Shown here: positions 20,529 through 29,607 of the stretch, piece after piece | Layout of the letters: the number at the start of each line of letters is the position of its first letter | Position numbering within the stretch: position 1 is the first letter of the stretch | Source of the DNA: Cerasicoccus maritimus | GTDB taxonomy: Bacteria > Verrucomicrobiota > Verrucomicrobiia > Opitutales > Cerasicoccaceae | Assembly (NCBI GenBank): GCA_031296935.1 | Contig: JAVDPD010000009.1 | Coordinates: forward strand, 102,449-166,448 | Length of the DNA stretch: 64,000 nt | Reading direction: 5' to 3' | The notes under the pieces: model-generated | Told to the model about the DNA's origin: nothing | What the model saw: only the letters and a program-made list of their open reading frames with translations | The model's database searches: none | Made by a program: the position numbers and the translations under genes

Positions 20529-21227
20529 ATGATGCCCGAATCCAAAAGCGTGTGGCGCCAAGCTCTCCTAGCGGCTTACCTGCGGCGAAAATATCGTCAG
20601 CGTTTCTATTCAGTGCGTGTGGGTGGGTTTGCGGGTTGGCAGGAATGGTTGCGCTCGGAGATGCCGTTTCCGCTGGTGTTTTTCGGCAACCACCAAACGT
20701 GGTGGGACGGGCTGCTCGACTTTTCGCTGACCCGTAGTTTTGGGATCGATCAGCGAGTGATGATGGAGGCCAAGAACCTTCAGCGTTTTCCTTACTTTCA
20801 GAAGTGCGGCGTGTTCGGCGTTGATCTGGAATCTGCTCGCGGGCGGGGGCAGGGGCTGCTGCACGCTGTGCGCTTGCTCAGTGAGGAATCGGAGCGGCGT
20901 TGCCTGATCATTTACCCGCAGGGGCGGCTGACGGCCGACTGGGACGAGGCACCGCTGCAAGGTGGGCTGGAGGCGATTTTAAAACGCGCGCCTCAGGCGA
21001 CTGCGATACCGGTGTGGCGCCATTTTCACCACGGCAAGCACGAGCTACCGGAGGTGGAAATGCAGCTTGGTGATCCTATTTTGCCGGGGCAGGCGCTAAG
21101 CACAGCTGATCTTGGGGATGCATTGGAATCTGTTCGCTTATCATTGTTCTTGCGATTAAAGAAGTCCGAGGATAAAGAGTTATTTTACATTTCCAGGCGA
21201 ATAAAGTCCTTACGTGGAGAGACTTAG
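20529..21227 (+). CDS. 1-acyl-glycerol-3-phosphate acyltransferase-like protein (PlsC family)
   Basis: 232 residues. FFGNHQTWWDGLLDF carries the HX4D acyltransferase motif (His55, Asp60), and LIIYPQGRLTADW is a variant of the EGTR block with Gln in place of Glu. The protein should transfer an acyl group to a phospholipid or glycolipid acceptor at the inner membrane. It is shorter than typical PlsC and lacks a clear N-terminal membrane anchor. The rhodopsin-like gene lies 94 bases downstream on the same strand. Confidence 0.72.
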   Translation: MMPESKSVWRQALLAAYLRRKYRQRFYSVRVGGFAGWQEWLRSEMPFPLVFFGNHQTWWDGLLDFSLTRSFGIDQRVMMEAKNLQRFPYFQKCGVFGVDLESARGRGQGLLHAVRLLSEESERRCLIIYPQGRLTADWDEAPLQGGLEAILKRAPQATAIPVWRHFHHGKHELPEVEMQLGDPILPGQALSTADLGDALESVRLSLFLRLKKSEDKELFYISRRIKSLRGET

Positions 21228-21321: not shown

Positions 21322-22455
21322 ATGGCCGAAAAATCAACACTCGTAGAGAAGTTGCCACCTATTGCTAAGGGCAATAGCCCAGCGTCAACTTCTTCGTCTA
21401 CACCCACCACACCCGCGCCGTCATCTACGACGACCTCAGTCGCCAAGCAACAATCCAGCGTCAAGACCACTCCCAAGGTCGAATCCAAGACCGCTGCGCC
21501 AGTTCAGACTGCGGAGAAAAAAGATGATGTCGTCGCCGCAACTGCGGTTGAAGAGACGCCGCCTCCTGGGATGCACTCGACCGCCTTCACGCATGCGACG
21601 TATTATTCCTTTTTGGGCGATGCGATTTTATGGGGCTGTATCGGCCTGTTCCTGTTTGGCAAAGCGTTTAAAGACAAAGCCAAGGTGCGTTTCGTCTCGA
21701 TGGCGACTTACGGCGGCCTGCTGATCGCCGTCGGCTTCATGTTCTTCATCTTGAGCAAGACTTACGCGGGTTACATACGTGGCGAAGCTGCGGAGCCGGG
21801 CCTCGGTTTGCGCGGTTTCTGCTGGGCGGTGTTTGCGCCGGTGCTCTTCTACGTTATTTCGCGCATCATCAAAGTGCCGGCGGAGGACAAGAAGTTATAC
21901 CTGACGATGTTTGGGCTCGGCTCCGGCATTTTCCTTTTCATCGGGCTCTCCCATCTGGTGGGTGGACGCATGGAGCAACTGGGGCTGTCGGTTTTCCCGT
22001 TCCTGTTTTCAGCCAGCCTAACGATGCTGCTGTTCATGACTTTGGGGCAGGGTGCCAGCGCACTCCGTGGTAAGCTCAAGCAGGGGGTGTCGATTGTGGT
22101 CTTTATGATTATCGGTGGCTGGTTCCTTTACCCGGTGATCAACTTGCTGTCGCACCTGACCGAGAACATGACTTTCTATAACTTTGCGCTGAATATTTTG
22201 GACCTTGTGCTCTTGGCGGGCATTACCTACGGGTTGTGGGAAACGATGTCTTCGCGCACTGACCGCATTCTTTTCAAGCCGTCGTTTGGTAAAGCAGCCA
22301 AGGCTTCAAAGTCGCCCTTTACGGTAGATGCTCCCAAGGAAAAGGAAGCAGAGGAAGAGTTCTCTGTTGCACGCGACTCCAAGCCAGCTGCTCCATCAGC
22401 TCCCAAGCCTTCTTTTAAAAAGCCTAAGCGTCCGCCTTCATTCAGTAACAACTAA
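21322..22455 (+). CDS. Seven-helix microbial-rhodopsin-like protein lacking the retinal lysine
   Basis: 377 residues: a Ser/Thr/Pro/Lys-rich N-terminal tail (1-85), seven hydrophobic helices (about 92-310) and a basic, Pro-rich C-terminal tail. Helix C reads LRGFCWAVFAPVLF, matching the R-x3-W-x4-P spacing of bacteriorhodopsin R82/W86/P91 (here R164, W168, P173). Helix F has W267-x2-Y270-P271, like W182/Y185/P186. Helix G has D294 and G300 at the spacing of D212 and G218. The Schiff-base position (K216) is L298, the proton acceptor (D85) is C167, and the donor position (D96) is V178. It should not bind retinal covalently or pump protons in the known way. Homology is inferred from spaced motifs and topology. 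Confidence 0.6.
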   Translation: MAEKSTLVEKLPPIAKGNSPASTSSSTPTTPAPSSTTTSVAKQQSSVKTTPKVESKTAAPVQTAEKKDDVVAATAVEETPPPGMHSTAFTHATYYSFLGDAILWGCIGLFLFGKAFKDKAKVRFVSMATYGGLLIAVGFMFFILSKTYAGYIRGEAAEPGLGLRGFCWAVFAPVLFYVISRIIKVPAEDKKLYLTMFGLGSGIFLFIGLSHLVGGRMEQLGLSVFPFLFSASLTMLLFMTLGQGASALRGKLKQGVSIVVFMIIGGWFLYPVINLLSHLTENMTFYNFALNILDLVLLAGITYGLWETMSSRTDRILFKPSFGKAAKASKSPFTVDAPKEKEAEEEFSVARDSKPAAPSAPKPSFKKPKRPPSFSNN

Positions 22456-22620: not shown

Positions 22621-23529
22621 ATGGGAAGTGAAGTTTTTCAAGATAGTTCAGTACTGATCTTAGGCTGTGGCTACGTGGGAGTAGCCGTGGGCAAAGCGCT
22701 GGCCACTGCTGGCGCTCAAGTGGATGCGCTAACCCGAAATGTCGACCGAGCAGCGGAAGCCAATGGGTTTGCGCGGCAAGTCTACCGCTGTGATCTCGAC
22801 TCCGCTGAATGGCATAGCCAGGTAGCCGAGCAGTACGACTTCGTGCTCAACTGCGTGAGCTCGGCGGGCAACGGCATGGAGGGCTACCGCAAGAGCTATA
22901 TTGGTGGCATGGAGTCGGTCATTGCCTGGGCTCAGAGTAAGTCCATCGGCACGTTTGCCTACACCAGCGCGACGAGTGTTTACCCGCACAGCGATGGACG
23001 CATCGTGACCGAGGAAGACGTGCCAGCTGACCTCACCGCGAGTGGCGATGTGCTCCGTGAAGCCGAAGAGCTGATCGAAAACGCGCCCGCTGGTTCGTGG
23101 GACCGCGCCTTCATTTTGCGCCTGGGCGCGATCTATGGCCCAACCCGTCACCACCTGCTGGATGCCCTCAAGCGTGGGACGACCACTTTCCCCGGCGAAG
23201 GTGGTTTCTATCTAAATTACATTCACCTCGACGACATCGTGAGTTCGGTGCTGGCGGCATTTGCGTCGGCGGATTCCCCGGGTGGCGCGTTCAACGTAGT
23301 CGATGGCGACTACCCGACGAAGGCCGATGTCGTTGAATGGCTGGCCGAGCAAATTGGCGCGCCGAAGCCGGTCTTTGACCCCAGCGCTCAAGGCCGCCGT
23401 GGTCCCATGCGCACCAACGCGCAAGGCAGCTTGCCGAACCGCCGGGTGTCCAACGAAAAGCTCCGTCGCGAACTCGGCTGGACCCCGAAGTTTCCAGATT
23501 TCAAAGCTGGCTACGCAGGGCTGCTGTAA
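22621..23529 (+). CDS. NAD-dependent epimerase/dehydratase-like protein (atypical SDR, YeeZ-like)
   Basis: 302 residues. SVLILGCGYVGVAVGKALATAG is a Rossmann start of the GxGxxG type, slightly different from classical SDR. FAYTSATSVYPHSDG carries the Ser/Tyr region, and FILRLGAIYGPTRH plus NYIHLDDIVSSVLAAF are extended-SDR blocks. No Tyr-x3-Lys is evident after the VYPH tyrosine. Substrate unknown. A TTGACC box at 22585 could serve as -35 for this gene. Confidence 0.75.
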   Translation: MGSEVFQDSSVLILGCGYVGVAVGKALATAGAQVDALTRNVDRAAEANGFARQVYRCDLDSAEWHSQVAEQYDFVLNCVSSAGNGMEGYRKSYIGGMESVIAWAQSKSIGTFAYTSATSVYPHSDGRIVTEEDVPADLTASGDVLREAEELIENAPAGSWDRAFILRLGAIYGPTRHHLLDALKRGTTTFPGEGGFYLNYIHLDDIVSSVLAAFASADSPGGAFNVVDGDYPTKADVVEWLAEQIGAPKPVFDPSAQGRRGPMRTNAQGSLPNRRVSNEKLRRELGWTPKFPDFKAGYAGLL

Positions 23530-27121: not shown

Positions 27122-28102
27122 CTAGTCTACGGAGAGCTCCGGCTCTGTTGCTAATTCATCGCGCCTCATTGGTGGCTGGAGGACGGGAAGGACATCGTGG
27201 TTGAGCATGTCTACGCCAGTTTGCGGCAAGAAGTGAGTGGGGTCAGCGGCAAAGAATTTATCCGGCTTAGAATATTTGCTGTCCATTAAGTCGATGGTGT
27301 AGGGAAAGAGTGCTTTGACGTCAGCTTTCCATTGGTCGACCACGGGCTGGATGTCGGCATCTTCAATCAACTCCAGGCTCTGCTCATGCATCGGAGTGAA
27401 GACGACAATGGCCACCATGCCGCGACCGTGTAAGAACTCAGCCAGCTGCGCCAGATAGGTCATGCGCTCGGGAAGCACGGCGAAGTCCTTGAACCATTCT
27501 GCGTGCTTATTAAACTCGCGCTCAGCCATGACGGGATTGGGCGTGGACTTCTGGACGAACCAGCGGTTTGCGATGAAGGCACCATTGCGGGCGAAGGTGG
27601 GATCGGAGCCCTGCAGGTTGCGGCGTATTGTTTTAATAGAGTCATCCAGTGATTGTATGCTGAAAATGTGGTCAAGCGTCTCGGTAAAGCCGGGTGGTTG
27701 AAAGGGGTCTGGCTTGAGGGGCTCGGTTTCGCGAAAGCTCCAGAAGTCGAGCATCAGGATGGCGACGTCTCCGCTGTCGATGTAGTGATCGGCAAAGTAG
27801 TAAAGTTCTTCCGGGGTTGCCCCGCCAAAGCTGGCATTGAATACATTGTAGCCTTTTACCTTTTCCGTGGGGATCATGCCTGGTTTGCTGTTGCCAAGCA
27901 GGACCGCATTGAAGTTACCCTGCTGGTAGAGCGGAGGCTTGGTATGGCGGTCCTGGCTGGTGTAAATGCCGAGGCTGTTCTGGCCGAAGATGCCATAGGG
28001 ATCGATGAAGTAATTGATCCCGCCATCGAGGAGCAGCCCGGTGACGATCACGATCGCGAGCGTCGCCAGGTATTTGCCAAAAGTTTTCTTATGCTCACTC
28101 AT
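27122..28102 (-). CDS. MBOAT partner protein, AlgX/DltD-like (SGNH-type)
   Basis: 326 residues. One N-terminal membrane anchor (residues 10-30) is followed by a soluble periplasmic domain. AVLLGNSKPGMIPTEKV resembles the GxS nucleophile block of SGNH hydrolase-like partners, ILMLDFWSF is a later strand, and DPTHFLPQTGVDMLN carries a D..H pair. It lies eight bases after the MBOAT gene, an arrangement seen for acyl transfer to periplasmic polysaccharides. The acceptor is unknown. The SGNH call is from motif placement and context. Confidence 0.65.
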   Translation of the reverse strand: MSEHKKTFGKYLATLAIVIVTGLLLDGGINYFIDPYGIFGQNSLGIYTSQDRHTKPPLYQQGNFNAVLLGNSKPGMIPTEKVKGYNVFNASFGGATPEELYYFADHYIDSGDVAILMLDFWSFRETEPLKPDPFQPPGFTETLDHIFSIQSLDDSIKTIRRNLQGSDPTFARNGAFIANRWFVQKSTPNPVMAEREFNKHAEWFKDFAVLPERMTYLAQLAEFLHGRGMVAIVVFTPMHEQSLELIEDADIQPVVDQWKADVKALFPYTIDLMDSKYSKPDKFFAADPTHFLPQTGVDMLNHDVLPVLQPPMRRDELATEPELSVD

Positions 28103-28110
28103 CGCCGGTC

Positions 28111-29607
28111 CTAAAATTGGTAGTAGAGGAATTCACTGCGGTTGGACAGGGAGAGGAACGCCGTCAGGAAGAGCAGCGCGGTGACCACGGCCCAGATGAC
28201 CGTGGGTTGCCAGGCCAGCTTGGCTGGCTCAACATTGGGTGCGCTGTCGCCCTCGGGTGGTTGGAAGTAGTTGGCCATCAGTTGGGCGAGATTCGGGCTA
28301 AACCAGCAGAACGCGGTCAAGGCGGCCAGGAAACCGAAAATCTGTGGCTTGAACAAGGCGGTGTGCTCGGAGACATCGGCCAGCCCAAACATCGCCTGAT
28401 AAACTGCTGATGCGGCAAAAAAGTCTTCCGCGCGGAAGAGCACCCAAGCCAGCACCACGCACAAGAACGTTAAGCCGACTCCGGCAATCTTACCAACGGG
28501 GAACTTGCCGCCTGCCAGTTTGCCTGTGAAGGGCAGCTTACTCTGGAGACGGCGGAAGTGGTGGTTGATCAGGAGGAAAGCGCCGTGAAGCACACCCCAG
28601 AGCACGAAGGTCCAACCCGCGCCGTGCCAGATGCCGCCCAGGAACATCGTTGCCATCAAATTCACGTCGCGCATGACGGGGCCTTTGCGGTTGCCACCGA
28701 GGGTGATGTAAACGTAGTCACGCAGGAAGCGGGAAAGCGTCATGTGCCAGCGACGCCAGAAGTCGATGATGCTGGCAGCCTTGTAGGGGGAGAGGAAATT
28801 CAGCGGCAGGCGAATGCCAAAGAGTAGCGCCAGGCCGATGGCCATATCTGTGTAGCCGGAGAAGTCGAAGTAGATCTGCATCGTGTAGGCCAGCGCGCCG
28901 GCCCAGGCTTCCCAGCTGTAGAGCGGCAGCCCGTTGTTCGCTGCGGCAAAGACCTCGCTGGCCTGTGCGCCAATGGCGTCCGCGATGACGACTTTTTTGA
29001 ACAACCCGAAGGCGAAAAAGGTTAGGCCAATGGCAATGTTATCCCACTTCAGACGATAAGTGTCTTCGTGCTCAAATTGCGGCATCATCTCCTTGTGGTG
29101 GACGATGGGGCCAGCGATTAGCTGCGGGAAAAACACCACAAACAGCAGGTATTCGCGAAATTCATACAGCGGCGCGTTGTCCTCGTAGCAATCGACCAGG
29201 TAGGCAATTTGTTGGAAGGTGAAAAACGAGATCGCCAGCGGCAGGATGACTTTATCCAGCGTCCAGCCGACTTCGAGCACGGCATTGATGTTATCCACGA
29301 AGAAGTTCGCGTATTTGAAATAGCCGAGCAGAGCGAGGTTCATGAACACGCCGATCAGCGTGACCAAGAGGTTCGGCCGTCGTCCGCGCGTGTAGTAGCT
29401 AATCGCTGCGCCCATGCCGAAATTGACGAGCGCCGAGCCCAACACGAGGCCCAGATAAATCGGGTTCCACCAACCGTAGTAAAACAGCGACACTGCGATC
29501 AGCCAGCTTTGCGCCGTCTCTTTATTGAAAAAGCGCGCAAGCAGGTAATAGCCGATCACCGCCAATGGCAGAAAGGCGAGTATGAATTCGTAAGAGTTAA
29601 ATAGCAT
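28111..29607 (-). CDS. Membrane-bound O-acyltransferase (MBOAT; AlgI/DltB-like)
   Basis: 498 residues with about ten membrane helices. LPLAISFFTFQQIAYLVDCYE, LIAGPIVHHKEMMPQFE, SIIDFWRRWHMTLSRFLRDYVYI and LGGIWHGAGWTFVLWGVLHGAFL are the AlgI/PatA blocks; the last includes the catalytic His of WHG. It moves an acyl group, usually acetyl, across the membrane to a polysaccharide together with the partner encoded just downstream. The first gene of a two-gene operon. Confidence 0.93.
   Translation of the reverse strand: MLFNSYEFILAFLPLAVIGYYLLARFFNKETAQSWLIAVSLFYYGWWNPIYLGLVLGSALVNFGMGAAISYYTRGRRPNLLVTLIGVFMNLALLGYFKYANFFVDNINAVLEVGWTLDKVILPLAISFFTFQQIAYLVDCYEDNAPLYEFREYLLFVVFFPQLIAGPIVHHKEMMPQFEHEDTYRLKWDNIAIGLTFFAFGLFKKVVIADAIGAQASEVFAAANNGLPLYSWEAWAGALAYTMQIYFDFSGYTDMAIGLALLFGIRLPLNFLSPYKAASIIDFWRRWHMTLSRFLRDYVYITLGGNRKGPVMRDVNLMATMFLGGIWHGAGWTFVLWGVLHGAFLLINHHFRRLQSKLPFTGKLAGGKFPVGKIAGVGLTFLCVVLAWVLFRAEDFFAASAVYQAMFGLADVSEHTALFKPQIFGFLAALTAFCWFSPNLAQLMANYFQPPEGDSAPNVEPAKLAWQPTVIWAVVTALLFLTAFLSLSNRSEFLYYQF

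Follow-up and report, generated by a model that had tools for sequence, protein, structure and literature searches.

A lysine-less homologue of microbial rhodopsins with conserved terminal peptides in Cerasicoccus, a putative retinal-free membrane scaffold

In a stretch of 64,000 nucleotides from Cerasicoccus maritimus (referred to as the window), the open reading frame at positions 21322-22455 encodes what is, judging by sequence similarity far beyond chance, a true homologue of the microbial (type 1) rhodopsins, and almost certainly an opsin homologue without a Schiff base. With a probability of roughly 0.55, we consider that this retinal-free opsin has been recruited as a transmembrane scaffold or anchor that works via its end peptides. 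A descendant of type 1 rhodopsins would thus have lost the Schiff-base lysine, the proton acceptor and the proton donor, and would work without retinal or light. Its seven-helix bundle would anchor it in the inner membrane in an N-out/C-in orientation. Of the two conserved peptides, the N-terminal one would be displayed outside the cytoplasm on a flexible linker, and the C-terminal one would face the cytoplasm on a basic tail. The protein would most likely link an envelope partner to a cytoplasmic partner as a scaffold or anchor, the cytoplasmic partner in relatives being most plausibly a co-encoded pseudokinase/ParA-ATPase module. The conserved peptides at both ends are a feature that the first-pass annotation of the window overlooked. 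The features considered are as follows:

21322..22455 (+), lysine-less opsin homologue gene, 377 aa plus stop (profile homology, AlphaFold2 model, PDB fold matches)
21322..21363 (+), N-terminal conserved peptide MAEKSTLVEKLPPI, residues 1-14 (alignments of 10 and 19 members)
21364..21582 (+), N-terminal linker, residues 15-87, Pro/Ala/Ser/Thr/Lys-rich, disordered, predicted extra-membrane and outside (pLDDT mostly <50; pN/pS)
21583..22248 (+), rhodopsin-like seven-helix domain, residues 88-309 (model, Foldseek, hhalign, pN/pS)
21802..21870 (+), helix C, residues 161-183, with R164, C167, W168, F171, P173 and V178 (model and alignment)
22072..22161 (+), helix F, residues 251-280, with W267-x2-Y270-P271 equivalent to Trp182/Tyr185/Pro186 (model and alignment)
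22168..22248 (+), helix G, residues 283-309, without lysine, D294 equivalent to Asp212 (model and alignment)
22213..22215 (+), codon of Leu298, at the position of the retinal-binding lysine (alignment; hhalign independently)
22249..22404 (+), C-terminal linker, residues 310-361, basic, disordered, predicted cytoplasmic (pLDDT, pN/pS, charges)
22405..22452 (+), C-terminal conserved peptide KPSFKKPKRPPSFSNN, residues 362-377 (alignments of 10 and 19 members)
20529..21227 (+), upstream acyltransferase-like gene (Pfam Acyltransferase just below cut-off; neighbour in 5/9 family genomes)
22621..23529 (+), downstream NAD-dependent epimerase/SDR gene (Pfam Epimerase; neighbour in 9/9 family genomes)

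In the ORF table of the window, the frame starts with ATG and encodes 377 aa, and no minus-strand ORF of at least 80 aa in the list overlaps it. A pseudogene is ruled out by purifying selection and by open frames in nine genomes of the family. Elsewhere in the window, two minus-strand genes at 27122-29607 resemble, by eye, a polysaccharide O-acetylation pair (AlgJ-like and MBOAT).

The relationship to rhodopsins, which the first-pass annotation had proposed together with profile searches as a check, was confirmed by such searches, as well as by an AlphaFold2 model and fold matches in the PDB. Using hhalign, a nine-row core of the window's family (f1), from which the tails were removed and the distant member L012 was left out, scored 49.5 against 37 canonical rhodopsins of the same class (E 3.4e-9, probability 95.8). 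Shuffling the columns within each helix or loop gave, over 200 trials, a mean score of 2.9 (sd 1.8) and a maximum of 11.3, by which a chance resemblance of seven-helix proteins is rejected, and the reversed f1 core scored 1.9. The core alignment also set L298 on the canonical lysine unprompted. A profile of ten relatives (A1) matched a profile built from nine canonical rhodopsins of the order (A2) with an E-value of 8.4e-8 and a probability of 94 and, when run over 372 genomes of the order, matched lysine-bearing rhodopsins of G210 (E 3.9e-14) and G294 (E 5.9e-14) and, more weakly, the PF01036 gene of G061 (E 2.6e-4). Against all PDB sequences, a 19-row profile (A3) returned rhodopsins in 14 of 15 rows (best E 1.8e-4), while A1 returned 13 rows (6 rhodopsins, 6 dopamine transporters and 1 lipase; best E 0.0077) and phmmer with the protein itself reached a bacteriorhodopsin-type chain only at E 0.11.

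The protein is not matched by the Pfam Bac_rhodopsin model (PF01036) and would thus escape automatic annotation. The best Pfam match, EpsG, and the likewise weak DUF996 both fall below their cut-offs and were rejected as leads, and an NCBIfam match to exosortase XrtC is noise (12.8 bits against a cut-off of 300). Membership of the heliorhodopsins was also rejected, as PF18761 is unmatched and the loop charges favor an N-out/C-in topology.

At the retinal-binding position of helix G, all 39 canonical rhodopsins aligned (2 of them partial) carry lysine, whereas the nine f1 members carry Leu (4), Val (4) or Met (1), and the helix-G window is free of lysine in all 19 relatives aligned, a comparison that the first-pass annotation had proposed. 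Nor does another lysine appear to take its place: within helices B-G, K146 is the only one located more than four residues away from the end of a helix, and it sits near the outer end predicted for helix B; an alternative pocket lysine was thus rejected. The residues that the first-pass annotation named (R164, C167, W168, P173, V178, W267, Y270, P271, D294, L298 and G300) all stand where it placed them, including Leu298 for the Schiff-base lysine, Cys167 for the acceptor and Val178 for the donor. In bacteriorhodopsin numbering, Arg82, Trp86, Pro91, Trp182, Tyr185, Pro186 and Asp212 are kept in 9/9 f1 members, with R164, W168 and P173 of the window protein as the equivalents of the first three. 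The window protein has C167 at the position of Asp85, F171 at Thr89 and V178 at Asp96. Across f1, these positions hold C/T/S, F/L and V/I/M/L, respectively. The distant L012 (of G011) retains hardly more than the W and P of helix C; its helix-G residue reads F in one alignment and V in another, and its alignment there is thus unsure.

The protein is predicted to adopt the seven-helix rhodopsin fold, in agreement with the first-pass annotation. AlphaFold2, run with A1, placed helices at residues 88-117, 124-152, 161-183, 187-212, 216-247, 251-280 and 283-309, with pLDDT values of 73-96 for ten-residue blocks in the helices. The tails at both ends, claimed earlier to be long and disordered, are indeed so in the model, and it is because of them that the mean pLDDT is only 68.4. 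Foldseek of the model against the PDB yielded 17 matches at E <=0.001, the best being kin4B8 (8.2e-5). The best 50 rows listed are rhodopsins by title or, presumably, by name, except for 5jsi, which is titled only as a membrane protein. These E-values are modest, with TM-scores by target of 0.59-0.85. The distribution of loop charges favors the N-terminus outside and the C-terminus inside, which is the usual rhodopsin topology and the one that we infer, with the helix E-F loop breaking the positive-inside pattern in five more distant members. An N-out topology would require translocation of the 87-residue tail, and a signal peptide is not evident.

Light-driven work by the known route is very unlikely, as neither a canonical rhodopsin (PF01036) nor blh (PF15461) was matched in genome-wide profile searches of the window genome (97.6% complete, 66 contigs). 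This includes the blh part of the search for retinal genes that had been proposed earlier, and the earlier claim that such photochemistry is impossible thus holds as far as sequence can say, the lysine also being absent. Both models were matched in relatives and gave no match in the named control genomes. Among 19 chosen genomes, a blh match coincided with a PF01036 match in 7, and the remaining 12 gave no blh match (for PF01036, absence covers 11 of these 12, namely all but G094). Of the ten f1 genomes, G002 is the single one that encodes a canonical rhodopsin and blh, which it does alongside the lysine-less gene; the other 8 of the 9 f1 genomes with this gene, that of the window included, have no PF01036 match.

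With the single sequence as query, the gene turned up in 10 of 54 genomes, namely in 9 of the 10 of f1 (four of the genus and five others, but not G006) and in G011 of f3. The A1 profile extended this range to a second family of the same order (f11), and in a draw of 387 genomes of the phylum, the 10 with the gene all belong to f1, f3 or f11. In a tree of 46 sequences, from which L012 and the short L022 and L040 were left out, the nine lysine-less proteins form one clade (UFboot 100) that groups with L020 (the nearest, UFboot 87) and L061 (99 for the group), which we take to be DTK-type rhodopsins of the Exiguobacterium type. These keep the Lys, Asp and Thr and match PF01036, in which the lysine-less clade differs from them. 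DTK-type rhodopsins are therefore the likely source of the lysine-less clade, although the placement is tentative because the stem to the clade, at 4.6 substitutions per site, is very long and long-branch attraction is possible. It should also be noted that the L064 row in the tree, as in the alignment of 39 canonical rhodopsins and in the hhalign core comparison, is a second, ordinary rhodopsin of that genome rather than its DTK-type one, so that the DTK placement is carried by just L020 and L061. DTK-type canonical rhodopsins were seen in f11 genomes at L061:8642-11582 and L064:11159-11881. Just upstream of that in L061, two small proteins are encoded, one of which gave a weak, sub-threshold match to Roadblock/LC7, and a gene downstream resembles, by eye, a lycopene cyclase; this neighborhood is possibly a light-signalling unit.

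The termini of the protein are conserved beyond the genus. The start reads M[ASP]E[KRQP]..[LF][VIL]..[LIV]PP over 19 relatives, M[AS]E[KRP]..L[VI]..LPP in nine of f1 and M[AS]E[KQ]..[LF][LVI]..[IV]PPV in nine of f11. The C-terminal end reads KP.F[KR][RK]P in 8/9 of f1 and [KR]AP.KPK in 9/9 of f11, while L012 has the start peptide and lacks the end peptide. Over four genomes of the genus, pN/pS is lowest within the gene in residues 1-14 (0.07), followed by the seven-helix domain (0.155), the last 17 residues (0.23), the N-terminal linker (0.51) and the C-terminal linker (0.61), synonymous sites being near saturation and short segments noisy. For comparison, the values are 0.10 for RecR and 0.105 for YbaB (both named by eye), 0.24 for the epimerase and 0.31 for the acyltransferase-like gene.

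In f11, most of the rhodopsin residues are lost, although both end peptides are kept. The equivalent of R164 is T or A in 7/9 members and those of W267, Y270 and D294 are changed in 9/9, with W168 kept in 9/9 and P173 in 8/9 of the alignment. The f11 model was matched best by Foldseek to psXR (2.5e-4) and PsFAR (3.6e-4); the best 50 rows listed include two GPCRs (ranks 21 and 49) and the unnamed 5jsi, and the rest are rhodopsins by title or, presumably, by name. The f11 loci share a gene order of opsin-like, kinase-like and c1 genes in 9/9 (the opsin-like genes of L051 and L052 being known from tblastn rather than from ORF tables), followed by a ParA-type ATPase in 8 and by c6 in 7, as ParA or c6 lies past the contig end in the others. 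Neither NCBIfam nor Pfam gave a name to c1 or c6. In the kinase-like protein, DFG reads ELG or EFG in 9/9, and HRD reads HAD or HGD in 7 and HAN in 2; from these altered motifs, it is predicted to be a pseudokinase.

Some genomes have lost part of this arrangement. In G210 of f11, a 265-aa protein (L157:7664-8461) has the f11 end peptides and one membrane helix and is encoded at the usual locus, beside the kinase-like gene. The f11 profile matches it over 1-101 and 316-408, i.e., the N-terminal tail with helix A and the C-terminal tail. Helices B-G are gone, with tails and cluster kept and the remaining helix only loosely alike; the topology would survive the loss of six helices. G114, which belongs to the same genus as G210, has its opsin-like gene in two frames (L158:4803-5944), and in G234 this gene is a 108-aa remnant (L156:5584-5910), both adjoining an intact c1-ParA pair. 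A kinase-like gene was not found in G234, and neither an opsin-like nor a kinase-like gene was found beside c1 in G200. These losses suggest that the shared function resides in the tails rather than in the bundle, and that, in f11, an opsin-like gene and a kinase-like gene belong together. The more distant G030 has kinase-like, c1, ParA and c6-like genes together (L159:4678-9425), with a 317-aa multi-helix protein that contains a Lys/Arg-rich stretch, a putative counterpart, at the opsin position.

The module of ParA-type ATPase, c1 and c6 (L054:5367-9144 and equivalents) is also seen in the window genome, at L077:4005-7654 (G000:C30). We found c1 in 10/10 f1 genomes, away from the opsin gene, as well as in 13 of f11, in G030 and in G145, where a direct search found only c1. 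Beside c1, the f1 ORF tables list ParA in 9/10 and a c6-like gene in 8/10, the c1 region of G009 (L086) having been missed by ORF calling. In f1, c1 is divergent from ParA, and a coiled-coil-like protein then follows in 8 loci. Within the sample of 372 genomes, c1 occurs in 19 of the 20 with an opsin-like gene and in 6 of the 352 without; the significance of this association is overstated (Fisher p 1e-25), as two families supply almost all of the cases. Opsin-like genes were here defined as the A1 matches plus G114 from A3, which covered part of the 372, leaving out the canonical matches (G061, G210 and the second of G294) and counting the one-helix gene of G210 and the remnant of G234 as without. 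As exceptions, G011 has an opsin-like gene and no c1, and G006 has c1 and no opsin-like match. By synteny, the f1 opsin gene is instead followed by the epimerase gene in 9/9 and preceded by the acyltransferase-like gene in 5/9, and a 318-aa kinase-like query gave only distant f1 matches, the best in frames of ~900-1,060 aa, with no clear counterpart. As the f1 opsin gene is not next to the ParA module, their link in f1 rests on f11 and on co-occurrence.

The first-pass annotation had guessed from the tails at a scaffold or signalling role, and this guess is strengthened by the end peptides, by the pseudokinase/ParA cluster in relatives and by the relative without helices B-G. That the partner is the ParA/pseudokinase module is a tentative assignment. 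Similarly tentative is the wider idea that a rhodopsin lineage became the membrane landmark of a ParA-ATPase/pseudokinase positioning module, in which a light machine would have been blinded, then hollowed to the bare fold and then, in one lineage, reduced to one helix, with the two peptide handles that do the work kept throughout. Were this true, the rhodopsin fold would be used purely as a scaffold organizing the cell. Nonetheless, since the seven-helix domain of Cerasicoccus is conserved (0.155) and an inert anchor would not need the Arg-Asp-Tyr network, there is room for a ligand or conformational role, even if this network is most simply structural in f1.

The main rival, which we consider somewhat doubtful, is a sensory receptor for a stimulus other than light, in which the empty retinal pocket would bind a small molecule and the C-terminal tail would signal. 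The purifying selection on the seven-helix domain, the retention of R, W, P, W, Y, P and D in 9/9 of f1 and the kinase-like gene next to that of f11 are in its favor, and a similar proposal was made for the opsin-related proteins (ORPs) of haloarchaea (PMC4915679). Against it stands f11, where the end peptides persist although R is replaced in most members and W267, Y and D in all; G210, too, retains the cluster without the bundle, and no chemoreceptor or transducer is found among the few neighbors named by Pfam.

The other alternatives are considerably weaker. Cerasicoccus is known for carotenoid pigments, and several of the top fold matches are carotenoid-binding rhodopsins (8i2z, 3ddl), such that light might be sensed via a carotenoid or another non-covalent chromophore, as with the antennas of xanthorhodopsin. 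This is improbable, as lysine, acceptor and donor are all lost, as the Foldseek ranks are close (8e-5 to 1e-3 over the first 20), without setting the antenna type apart, and as relatives have lost core residues or the bundle. Even less probable is a modulator or assembly partner of a canonical rhodopsin, as suggested for the betaproteobacterial Rh-noK; although G002, of the same genus, has a canonical rhodopsin and blh together with the lysine-less gene, the partner rhodopsin was not found, by PF01036, in 8/9 of the f1 genomes. Finally, the missing Pfam rhodopsin match, the sub-threshold EpsG and DUF996 and the A1 search of the PDB (best E only 0.0077, 6/13 rows rhodopsins) could speak for an unrelated seven-helix membrane protein whose residues agree by chance. 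This is scarcely credible, given the agreement of the shuffles, the whole-genome rhodopsin matches, hhalign, AlphaFold2 and Foldseek, and is refuted at the sequence level by the shuffles.

Lysine-less rhodopsins are numerous in databases, with Rh-noK accounting for ~600 of the 5,558 microbial rhodopsin genes known at the time, according to PMC7714340. A survey of Verrucomicrobiota rhodopsins restricted its phylogeny to lysine-bearing sequences (PMC10284914); together with the Pfam model that misses the present protein, such filtering shows a blind spot. This lineage offers handles on what such proteins do, namely two short conserved peptides for deletion or use as bait, a conserved cluster in relatives and a genus with named species. 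It also offers a natural series in which an intact rhodopsin, a blind opsin, a bare fold and a single helix follow one another.

ParA/MinD positioning ATPases work with membrane or cargo adaptors. Similarly, the relatives studied here co-encode a ParA-type ATPase with a KGGVGKT motif and a membrane protein with short conserved basic peptides. We know of no ParA/MinD adaptor with a rhodopsin fold, and the interaction considered here is putative.

The haloarchaeal ORPs (Becker et al. 2016) are, like the window protein, type 1 opsin homologues without the helix-G lysine, and are expressed. According to the excerpts of that paper, eight species with ORPs and no canonical opsin also lack crtY and brp, and 17 of the 32 ORPs in group B are linked to HAMP/MCP transducers; non-light sensing was proposed (PMC4915679). 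The window protein differs from the ORPs as described there in its long tails with conserved end peptides and in the ParA/pseudokinase cluster of its relatives. The neighbors named at the f1 loci are the downstream epimerase (9/9) and the upstream acyltransferase-like gene (5/9). The Rh-noK of marine betaproteobacteria (Yamauchi et al. 2019) is likewise a bacterial lysine-less rhodopsin. It is reported to be encoded in tandem with a proteorhodopsin gene and to pump once the lysine is restored (PMC10308929, PMC7714340), whereas the present protein lacks the acceptor and donor as well, and no partner rhodopsin was matched in the window genome. No tandem with a canonical rhodopsin was found at the window locus, its neighbors being the acyltransferase-like and epimerase genes.

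FArhodopsins also have lysine-less bacterial members, and, for the f11 model, PsFAR ranks second among the fold matches. In the available sections of their account, the freshwater ones are mostly lysine-less, with Q/T/L/R at the site, they are linked to flotillin, the marine ones always have a proteorhodopsin in the genome, and membrane organization is one idea for their role (PMC10308929). By Pfam, the immediate neighbors in the window are not flotillin, and the tails with conserved end peptides that are present here are not seen in those sections (PMC10308929). The first-pass annotation had mentioned lysine-less opsins from fungi; such proteins are known, but they are not confined to fungi, as they are also found in haloarchaea, betaproteobacteria, freshwater FArhodopsins and a cryptophyte. 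Among the matches listed in our search of the open-licence literature, no description of a lysine-less rhodopsin in Cerasicoccus or other Verrucomicrobiota was found. As lysine-less rhodopsins have been published elsewhere, the novelty of the present protein therefore lies in its lineage, its tails and its gene context.
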